24,941 bases of DNA from a virus, in IMG/VR virus record IMGVR_UViG_3300030107_006659, positions 1-24,941 of that record; one strand, written 5' to 3'. A program made the position numbers and the translations under genes. This document shows positions 456 to 6,307 of this stretch, piece by piece. Position 1 is the first letter of the stretch, and each line of letters opens with the position of its first letter. The notes below the pieces were generated by a model that was not told the origin of the DNA, did no database searches, and was given only the letters and a program-made list of their open reading frames with translations.

Positions 456-876
456 GGGGCTGAAATGGTATCGACAGGTGTTATTTGACAATTGAGTGCA
501 GCAGAGTTTGAGTAGACTCTTAAATAAAACTCACCAAACTCAAATGGCGATAATTCGCTAGAAGGGTTGGACATTGATTGGCATTTAGCTGCGTATGATA
601 TACCAGCTTTACCAATCGGTAATGACCAACCATCTTACGGCGTTTACGCTTCGTAAGATACTGAGTTGTCTAACACTCGGTCATAAAATAAGTTAGACAA
701 ACTCACTTTAGCCAGAGGGAAGTTAGTGATTAAAGAAACTGCCAGTTGACAACTCTGAACAAAGTTGTTATTGGGTTGTAAGTGACTTCGTATAGTATTA
801 GTAGGAACTTAACTAAGCTGTAAACGACTCATTGAAAAAGACAGACTGGACGCGGGTTCGACTCCCGCCAGCTCCA
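456..876 (+). ncRNA. ssrA: One-piece tmRNA (transfer-messenger RNA)
   Basis: Both ends of a tRNA-like domain are clear. The 5' acceptor strand GGGGCTG (456-462) pairs with CAGCTCC (869-875), including the G3-U70 alanine identity pair, with discriminator A876 and no encoded CCA. The D-like segment GGTATCGACAGG follows, and the T arm is GCGGG/TTCGACT/CCCGC (852-868). Between them lie a pseudoknot-like PK1 region (about 505-540), a tag frame starting at about 546, a 16-bp H5-like stem (565-581 with 612-631), and a 12-bp stem 663-674/692-704 in the later pseudoknot region. tmRNA frees stalled ribosomes by acting first as tRNA-Ala and then as mRNA for a tag. Length 421 nt, longer than E. coli's 363. 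It starts 3 nt after a stop codon and no separate promoter is visible, so RNase processing from a longer transcript is likely. Confidence 0.93.
546..656 (+). other. Putative tmRNA tag reading frame (36 codons)
   Basis: After the PK1-like region the frame GGC GAT AAT begins about where a resume codon is expected. Bacteroidetes tmRNAs also resume on glycine GGC (tag GETNYALAA). The frame gives GDNSLEGLD..., then HLAA at codons 13-16 (582-593) exactly in the loop of the H5-like stem. The next codon is TAT rather than a stop, and the frame continues to ...PSYGVYAS with TAA at 654-656. The alternative frame starting GCG (547) gives only four codons before TAG. The choice of resume codon is an inference from position and comparison. 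Confidence 0.5.
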
Positions 877-3715: not shown

Positions 3716-4207
3716 ATGAATTATAGGAACTTTACAATATTATCATTAATGGTGTTGGCAGTAATAACTAGATTACTGCCACACCCACCGAATGTAGCTC
3801 CTATAACTGCTATAGCATTGTTTGGTGGTTGTTACATTAAGGATAAAAACTTAGCATATGTTTTACCTTTACTCTGTATGTTTTTTACTGATTTGTTTTT
3901 GGGGTTTCATATCATAATGCCATTTGTGTATATGTCTTTTATGATTATCTCTTACATCGGTATCATTTCAAAAAAAATTACCAATAAAATTATATTAAGT
4001 AGTTCATTGTTATTCTTTTTGATTACTAACTTCGGAGTTTGGTTTTTTGGTTATCCGAATACATTTGCTGGTTTGATAAGTTGTTATACTTTAGCTTTAC
4101 CATTTTTTATTAATACAATAATTGGAGATTTATTTTTCTCTCATGCTTTAGGTTATGCTTTTAGTAAGTTAGAAGAAAAATATCCAATCTTAACACAAGG
4201 TGTTTAA
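3716..4207 (+). CDS. Polytopic membrane protein, DUF6580/ECF S-component-like
   Basis: A 163-residue integral membrane protein with about five or six hydrophobic segments (roughly 6-18, 28-42, 47-63, 66-85, 93-111 and 117-143). The conserved-looking block RLLPHPPNVAPITAIALFGG at residues 19-38, followed by PLLCMFFTDLFLG at 51-63 and the late FFINTIIGDLFFS, matches my recollection of the DUF6580 family, bacterial membrane proteins related in shape to the substrate-binding S components of ECF vitamin transporters. If so it may bind a small cofactor in the host inner membrane. It is unusual in a phage, has no energising ATPase or T component nearby, and starts one base after a small early gene. 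Substrate unknown; family assignment is from memory of the motif. Confidence 0.65.
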   Translation: MNYRNFTILSLMVLAVITRLLPHPPNVAPITAIALFGGCYIKDKNLAYVLPLLCMFFTDLFLGFHIIMPFVYMSFMIISYIGIISKKITNKIILSSSLLFFLITNFGVWFFGYPNTFAGLISCYTLALPFFINTIIGDLFFSHALGYAFSKLEEKYPILTQGV

Positions 4208-5081: not shown

Positions 5082-5657
5082 ATGTCAACAAATAGACTAT
5101 CATTTTTACTTGGTGTATTAACAACATCATTAGCCGTGATGTTGTTTAAGGAATATCAAGGAAAGCCAGAAGTTGTTAGAACTAAAACTGAAACTATTGT
5201 TCGTATGGTTGATGTACCACGAGTATCTGAAAATTACGATGTTCAGGTAGAAGAAATAAAATCTTCTTTAAACAAATCTAAACTTAAACACATACTTATT
5301 TATATAGAAGCTCTCTGTTGGGAGTATGGGGTTGATTATGAAATGGTTAAAGCAGTTATACAAACCGAATCAAGTTGGAATCATAAAGCTATATCTGAGG
5401 TTGGTGCTATTGGTTTAATGCAAGTATTACCATCTACAGCAAAGTCTGAATTTAAAACACCAAAAAAAGACCTTTTTGATCCTTATGTGAATGTAACTGT
5501 TGGTATTAAATATCTGTCAAAACTAAATCAAGACTTTGATGATGTGGATGCCATGTTAACAGCATATAGTCACGGTCCTACTGTAACAAAAAAATATTCT
5601 AATAATTATATTAGTAACAACTTTTATGTTAAGAGGGTTCAAAATAATCTAAAATGA
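5082..5657 (+). CDS. Membrane-anchored lytic transglycosylase (SLT domain)
   Basis: The 191-residue product has an N-terminal hydrophobic segment (about residues 7-22, no clear cleavage site), a linker to about 70, then a soluble lytic transglycosylase domain. YGVDYEMVKAVIQTESSWN (82-100) holds catalytic Glu96; GAIGLMQVLPSTA (108-120) is the signature block; AYSHGP (161-166) replaces the usual AYNAGP. These enzymes cleave the MurNAc-GlcNAc bond in peptidoglycan, here from the membrane or periplasmic side. It could act in lysis or, less likely given its anchor and position away from the tail genes, in virion entry. It overlaps the Popeye-like gene by ATGA (5654-5657), so the two are translationally coupled. 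Start chosen for the AAAGGA upstream. Confidence 0.88.
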   Translation: MSTNRLSFLLGVLTTSLAVMLFKEYQGKPEVVRTKTETIVRMVDVPRVSENYDVQVEEIKSSLNKSKLKHILIYIEALCWEYGVDYEMVKAVIQTESSWNHKAISEVGAIGLMQVLPSTAKSEFKTPKKDLFDPYVNVTVGIKYLSKLNQDFDDVDAMLTAYSHGPTVTKKYSNNYISNNFYVKRVQNNLK

Positions 5658-6307
5658 ATATAGCAACAATAGCTGGACATCTTGCCTTTGGGCTTATTGC
5701 CTTTTCTTTTTTAGTAAAAGACATTCTTTACTTACGAGTAGTATCTATATTGGCTAGTTTGTTTTCGGTTTTTTATAACTACATGATACCAGAAGAACCG
5801 TTATGGTTAGCTATAAATTGGAATTTTATTTTTATTGCTGTTAATGTCTATCATGTTGCTATTTTGATTTATGAAAAAAGACCAGTTCATATGACAGATA
5901 AAGAAAAAGAATTATATGAGACTATGTTTCGTGGGTTAACACCAGTAGAGTTTTTAAAAATAACTAAAGTTGCTGAATGGAAAAAGTTTAATTCTCCATT
6001 ACCAATTATACAGCAAGGTAAGCCAGTTAATGATTTGATTCTTATTTACAATGGCATGGTAGATGTTCTTGTCAATGATAAGAAAGTAGCCGAACTAAAA
6101 GATGGTCAGTTTGTTGGAGAGATGTCATTTCTTACAGAGAAACCAGCAACAGCAACTTGTAGGGTAGAACACAATACTGAATGTTTAGTTTGGAATCAAA
6201 AAGATTTTAAAGATTTATTGAAACGAAATCCTTCTTTATATTTTACAATACAATCACTATTAAGTGAGCAAGTTTCTAACAATTTAGTTTCAAGTTCTCA
6301 AAGATAA
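5654..6307 (+). CDS. Popeye-like membrane protein with cyclic-nucleotide-binding-like domain
   Basis: The 217-residue protein has three predicted membrane helices (about 4-22, 26-45 and 50-73), then a cytoplasmic cNMP-binding-like beta-roll (about 95-205). The order and motifs, GHLAFGLIAFSFLVKDILYLR at the start, LYETMFRGLTPVEF (88-101) and DGQFVGEMSFLTEKPATATC (150-169), match bacterial Popeye-domain-like proteins as I recall them. In CAP-type domains a phosphate-binding Arg follows the GE (GE...pRsA); here the equivalent is PATA, so classical cAMP binding is doubtful, as in other Popeye-type pockets. Its start is inside the transglycosylase stop, suggesting a joint role at the envelope, perhaps sensing or timing lysis (inference). 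Such proteins are rarely noted in phages. Confidence 0.78.
   Translation: MNIATIAGHLAFGLIAFSFLVKDILYLRVVSILASLFSVFYNYMIPEEPLWLAINWNFIFIAVNVYHVAILIYEKRPVHMTDKEKELYETMFRGLTPVEFLKITKVAEWKKFNSPLPIIQQGKPVNDLILIYNGMVDVLVNDKKVAELKDGQFVGEMSFLTEKPATATCRVEHNTECLVWNQKDFKDLLKRNPSLYFTIQSLLSEQVSNNLVSSSQR

Follow-up and report, generated by a model that had tools for sequence, protein, structure and literature searches.

The peptide tags encoded by tmRNAs are usually regarded as short degrons whose exact sequence is of little importance. Canonical one-piece tmRNAs (ssrA, RF00023) combine a tRNA-like domain containing a G3.U pair with PK1, a resume codon about 90 nt into the RNA and preceded by an A at -4, a tag of about 10 codons with a small or hydrophobic end, a helix H5 that holds the stop codon, and PK2; the G.U third acceptor pair is the alanine determinant. 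All of these elements recur in the phage tmRNA reported here, which differs in that its tag comprises 34-43 codons across the family and in that a conserved peptide module and an extra stem-loop stand between the resume codon and H5. In E. coli, A86 fixes the frame four nucleotides downstream, and mutation of A86 abolishes activity (PMC2481249). According to a review, known tmRNA tags range from 8 to 35 aa (PMC8012679); a 2025 tmRNA database paper, with 79 phage sequences, gives 10 aa as the commonest tag length (PMC11915505).

The E. coli ssrA tag resembles the tag described here in carrying an adaptor-binding part (for SspB) in front and an unfoldase-binding end (for ClpX) behind, but both signals lie there within 11 residues, and its sequence is by eye unrelated to the phage module. 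The nearest precedent is the mf-ssrA tag of Mesoplasma/Mycoplasma, a longer tag with a recognition element besides its end, although that system is cellular and the present one is carried by a phage; we know of no sequence common to the mf-ssrA tag and SLxGLxIDWHLA. An 'extended tmRNA tag' figures in the title of a 2009 paper by Ge and Karzai, cited in PMC9097571. The M. florum tag differs in length and sequence, being longer, and is degraded by Lon (PMC8138137). Marine myophage Melnitz and the pelagimyophages are likewise marine T4-like phages with ssrA, but their tmRNAs are described as permuted two-piece molecules, as opposed to the one-piece RNA here, and the available part of that paper mentions no long tag for them (PMC9004378).

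The tmRNA gene and its tag frame

The window, by which we mean the whole 24,941-base stretch analysed, is a record from an uncultured virus and contains T4-like genes for a late-sigma-like protein, baseplate wedge proteins and a polynucleotide-kinase-like phosphatase. The original prediction of a phage tmRNA with clear tRNA-like ends was confirmed by cmscan with the Rfam models (RF00023 at 456-879, 100.7 bits, E 1.5e-38) and by ARAGORN, which places the gene at 456-877. The ends, GGGGCUG and CAGCUCC, form an acceptor stem with G3.U as the third pair, and the T-arm is CGCGGGUUCGACUCCCG. The features of the gene are as follows, in window coordinates.

456-879, + strand: phage tmRNA gene, one-piece (RF00023, ARAGORN and sequence; CCA not encoded)
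503-533, + strand: PK1 pseudoknot; stem 2 (509-513/529-533) covaries in the alignment
507-697, + strand: cassette PK1-tag-PK2, exchanged relative to a short-tag sibling (identity drops to 22-51%)
542, + strand: A at -4 of the resume codon, invariant in 94/94 sequences; equivalent of E. coli A86
546-656, + strand: tag reading frame, 36 codons plus TAA (window sequence and relatives)
547-558, + strand: small hairpin GCGA/UCGC over the first codons
555-590, + strand: N-module, codons 4-15, SLEGLDIDWHLA; near-invariant peptide in relatives
565-631, + strand: extra conserved stem-loop (565-570/626-631 and 572-574/622-624) containing the N-module and linker
591-626, + strand: linker, variable in sequence and in length but always in frame
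627-653, + strand: C-terminal module QPSYGVYAS (family QPTYAYA(A)), a canonical-type tag end
632-659, + strand: true H5 (632-637/654-659), with the stop codon UAA in its 3' strand
660-681, + strand: first stem of PK2 (660-666/675-681)

Behind PK1, the frame GGC-GAT-AAT is open from 546 for 36 codons, up to a TAA at 654-656 inside H5, and encodes GDNSLEGLDIDWHLAAYDIPALPIGNDQPSYGVYAS. Its resume codon lies 91 nt into the gene, and those inferred for the relatives lie mostly 89-96 nt from the 5' end of the RNA, with the A at -4 conserved throughout (in seven sequences with one extra codon, counted from their own first codon). The frame is not a product of chance: it is open in all 94 distinct relatives, of which 93 have the +1 frame closed and all 94 the +2 frame. 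Linker lengths change by whole codons only, so that the frame to the N-module is kept. The resume codon at 546, the 36-codon tag and the stop at 654 had all been predicted and hold up. We consider the anatomy and frame given here to be almost certain. With 36 aa in the window and 34-43 in the family, the tag exceeds the known length range, which is usual rather than defining for tmRNAs; its length makes this RNA a variant. One locus (L225, tag at about 5248) has its stop changed from TAA to CAA, which gives a single stop-loss form of 49 codons; its near-identical sibling L236 retains TAA.

The letters LAA at 585-593, followed by TAT at 594-596, are present as originally described, but the idea that a canonical LAA-stop end is overrun in the loop of H5 did not survive comparison with the relatives. 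Tag position 16 is variable (E in 40/58 tags of the first set, the usual sequence being HLAE), so the window's LAA is merely the conserved HL-A plus a variable residue, an accident and not a lost stop site. A sequencing error, with TAA read as TAT at 594-596, was ruled out: relatives have sense codons there and none has a stop.

Several other genes of the window deserve mention. A tRNA-Ala(tgc) lies at 1891-1964, and between it and the tmRNA region a small protein (1653-1877) has a weak MazE/AbrB-type match, below the cut-off in Pfam (phrog_661, E 2e-9). The protein encoded at 5654-6307 has a Popeye domain (POPDC1-3, E 4.6e-14) and a cyclic-nucleotide-binding domain (E 2e-15), each over its Pfam cut-off and together odd cargo for a phage, and a DUF6580 membrane protein is encoded at 3716-4207 (E 5.7e-46).

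Relatives and short-tag siblings

A sibling locus found with the exact 5'-end pattern (L083) has a frame that reads GDNSLEGLDIDWHLAEYDYPAAPISRKADVQPTYAFA up to its stop. Searching viral contigs with the tag peptide yielded 24 loci at first and 100 stretches afterwards, 80 of them retained, and a degenerate DNA pattern built on the core of the peptide matched at least 119 stretches; removal of duplicates left at least 94 distinct tmRNA/tag sequences, all of them metagenomic fragments from uncultured phages. RF00023 scored over threshold in 18 of the 19 loci from the first tag search that were run through cmscan, the sole exception (L098) starting 8 bases before the tag. Only two pattern matches, L193 and L222, fell outside a tmRNA-like context among the matches listed.

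The tag had no match in 50,697 records of cultured phages, nor in Pfam or the PDB, and in 2.6 million residues of phage six-frame translation the N-module turned up nowhere outside tags, apart from weak chance matches. A long tag in mycobacteriophage Bxz1 was looked for and not found. As a host gene the tag could be discarded: its sole match in genome contigs of 84,980 species, one per species, was a phage contig in MAG TMED198, and 245 genomes of the same phylum held no other copy. The tags of 40 relatives of this MAG were mostly ADYGYAAAA-like, which names no host for the phages. For one cellular tmRNA from a relative of TMED198 (L329), ARAGORN places the tag at gene position 223 and reads it, implausibly, as ENSFTSVNIQDSFILL; automatic tag calling may fail there also.

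Because searches based on the tag cannot show how general the N-module is, we used two patterns independent of it, one from PK2 and one from the 3' half of the RNA. Among the loci fetched with the PK2 pattern, every complete instance had the N-module or a close variant (147 core matches, some redundant, and eight variants, which include KVDWH, EVDWH, VVDWH and IDWQF; five more were cut by contig ends). The 3'-half pattern returned 31 distinct long-tag, seven short-tag and six truncated forms. The short tags have nine residues (GNTANFAYA, GTQFNYAYA, GNTANYAYA and GNMSNFAYA), end in YAYA or FAYA, and start at the same AATT-GGC as the long tags, or at AGTT-GGC in one case.

One short-tag sibling amounts to a natural swap. 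The L062 contig comes from a related phage, whose baseplate protein is 78% identical to that of the window, and carries a 357-nt tmRNA (L356) at the equivalent locus, with a homologous downstream gene and, by eye, a homologous upstream gene. The two tmRNAs are 96.1% identical over 456-506 and 94.5% over 698-879 but only 22-51% between, from which we conclude that the middle cassette has been exchanged. ARAGORN starts the L356 tag, GNTANFAYA, at gene position 91, the position inferred for the window, and thereby fixes the window's resume codon independently. The short-tag siblings (L356, L361 and others) thus share the resume context and the YAYA/FAYA end with the long-tag RNAs, and L356 also the locus and outer sequence; they differ in their 9-codon tag, in another PK2, and in having neither N-module nor extra stem.

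The swap shows the long tag to be a tag of canonical type, to which an N-module and a linker have been added before the same kind of end. Its front has the consensus G-D-x-S-L-x-G-L-x-I-D-W-H-L-A, with S-L-x-G-L-x-I-D-W-H-L-A as the N-module core. The family ends in QPTYAYA(A), i.e. YAYA or YAYAA, and also in YAFA or YAAA, and so has the hydrophobic/Ala C terminus of a ClpXP-type ssrA degron; the window itself closes on YAS, and its VYAS, in which the last residue alone is unusual, is the single exception to the family end. The suggestion that the degron had been replaced by an uncommon C terminus was therefore not upheld, the family ends being of the same type as those of the short-tag siblings.

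Peptide and RNA constraints on the tag

The structure was assessed by counting pairs. In 36 diverse sequences the proposed helices jointly had 93.3% of cells paired, compared with 85.6% in shuffles and 25-43% when slid, the alignment being sequence-only and the structure, partly derived from the same sequences, being favoured in the slide test. Double changes numbered 82 in the proposed helices and 19.6 in shuffles. The small hairpin at the resume codon (547-550/555-558) had 95.5% of cells paired, compared with 26-39% in slid versions. H5 had 97.7% of cells paired and double changes in 4/6 pairs, and the first stem of PK2 99.6% paired with double changes in 6/7 pairs. The extra stem is moderately supported, with pairs formed in 91% of cells and with 15 double changes, mainly at pair 572-624, against 4.0 in shuffles. 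The family RNA of the tag stretch folds better than shuffled sequence (median z about -4). The originally proposed stem 565-581/612-631 exists, and its basal part, 565-574/622-631, is conserved; it is not H5, however, which lies at 632-659.

The peptide is constrained independently of this pairing. Across the 94 distinct sequences, pN/pS is 0.17 in codons 5-15; L5, L8, I10, D11 and H13 are invariant and vary in codon choice alone. Synonymous codons occur at Leu5 (CTA/CTC/CTT/TTA), Ile10 (ATT/ATA/ATC), His13 (CAT/CAC) and Ala15 (GCT/GCC/GCA). Averaged over codons 5-15, which form the 5' arm of the extra stem, diversity at the three codon positions is 0.073/0.059/0.332; over codons 23-29, which form the 3' arm, it is 0.418/0.314/0.422. 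Since the two paired arms evolve unlike each other, with a coding pattern in the 5' arm only, the N-module is selected as a peptide, and RNA pairing alone does not explain its conservation; base pairing does also tie G7-L8 (codons 7-8) and Q28-P29 (codons 28-29). The same strong coding-level constraint makes it unlikely that tagging is weakened while ribosome rescue stays intact, as had been suggested.

These data bear on two other accounts of the front half of the tag. ARAGORN calls only the last 12 residues, GNDQPSYGVYAS, from a resume codon at 618, which would reduce 546-617 to a non-coding, hairpin-forming insertion. The window is not alone in receiving this call, which several relatives share; the extra stem is conserved, and GNDQPTYAYAA resembles a canonical tag. 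Nevertheless, we regard it as a mis-call with scarcely any prospect of being right, because codons 5-15, upstream of 618, show the coding signature, and the A at -4 and the spacing from PK1 fit 546. Moreover, the sibling short tags resume at gene position 91, and cellular tmRNAs with tags of 9-10 aa resume at 94-99. Relatives do not conserve GND at 618, and every linker holds the frame to the N-module. Alternatively, the N-module could be kept for RNA reasons only, by structure or an RNA-protein contact, with the peptide irrelevant. The extra stem, of which it forms the 5' arm, is indeed conserved and covaries at 572-624, and the small hairpin constrains codons 1-5. Yet the equally paired partner strand evolves without a coding pattern and even changes length, the invariant residues are written with two to four synonymous codons, and codon positions 1 and 2 are frozen where position 3 varies, all of which renders this account improbable.

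Possible fate of tagged proteins

A working phage tmRNA whose tag joins two signals, a normal degron and a docking peptide, is probably the best explanation of the whole. Such an RNA would act with host SmpB: a stalled ribosome would accept its Ala, move to GGC at 546, and add Ala plus GDNSLEGLDIDWHLAAYDIPALPIGNDQPSYGVYAS. The C-terminal end (family YAYA(A)) would serve as an ordinary protease-recognised tag end, as in the short-tag siblings, and the N-module (SLxGLxIDWHLA) as a linear docking peptide that lets a specific adaptor or protease capture tagged proteins, the two being joined by a flexible linker whose sequence would matter little. We infer host SmpB, degradation, the docking role and its partner from these features, and hold degradation of tagged proteins to be likely and the docking role of the N-module to be a tentative proposal. 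We presume that the phages depend on host SmpB and, for the most part, on host proteases, because no SmpB gene was recognised in 30 phage contigs (0/30) and no SspB in 25 (0/25), absences that are weak as the contigs are fragments, and because ClpP occurred in only 2/25. The contigs of L122 and L131 encode a ClpP-family protease (L354 and L355), the L355 match having one internal TAA.

AlphaFold2 modelling of the tag alone gave a mean pLDDT of 65, without secondary structure or fold. The hydrophobic residues of the N-module alternate (L8, I10, W12 and L14), a pattern that, judged from sequence, would suit strand-type binding. The window's Ala-Ser end recalls the DAS+4 tag, which has the same end and requires an adaptor for degradation (PMC8138137); by that analogy alone it would fit a docking role.

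The same features could be read differently. A long tag might stabilise or re-localise proteins, without degradation, and so recover truncated phage proteins or sequester host proteins; the window tag does end in Ala-Ser and not Ala-Ala, and a conserved N-module would go well with a partner other than a protease. We consider this unlikely, as nearly all relatives, and the short-tag siblings too, retain an end of the YAYA(A) type, which is what degradation predicts. The N-module might also act within the ribosome tunnel, by pausing or another nascent-chain effect, rather than after release, given that it is short and conserved, contains W and several hydrophobic residues, has no predicted stable fold, always sits at the same place behind the resume codon, and lies in a strong RNA hairpin. 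But outside the YAYA end no arrest site is marked by a conserved residue at constant spacing from the stop, and such an action seems rather improbable.

In 61/81 loci the gene immediately upstream of the tmRNA encodes an acidic protein of ~50 aa, apparently of two helices, and in most of the 61 this gene stops no more than about 15 nt from the tmRNA; in bacteria, smpB often occupies that place. The protein has the pattern ..LeeIIxxLeeAieeeDWdlVkelieeL.., and examples are found among L109-L187, in L083 (about 5664-5807) and in L189 (upstream of the tmRNA on the minus strand). Searches of Pfam and PHROG gave no convincing match. Attractive as it is as a lead, we set this protein aside as the tag partner because it is absent from the window and has no convincing database match.

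If a docking role for the N-module is accepted, tentatively, in addition to the degron, we may be dealing with a widespread phage tmRNA family whose exchangeable targeting peptide, SLxGLxIDWHLA, routes rescued proteins to a specific receptor. That putative receptor, phage- or host-encoded and an adaptor, protease or other protein, might lie beyond the reach of ordinary ssrA tags. Dozens of phage lineages keep an extra peptide of 12-15 residues almost unchanged inside the tag; such a near-invariant front half suggests that phages steer tagged proteins somewhere specific and raises the question of what the N-module binds. Sibling phages with a normal 9-residue tag at the same locus make a direct swap experiment possible. 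Since ARAGORN and cmscan mis-read such tags, phage tags in databases may be wrong, and an orthogonal tag of this kind could serve as a degradation tool. If the proposal is true, trans-translation in infected cells would be a routing system that delivers every rescued protein to a specific receptor.
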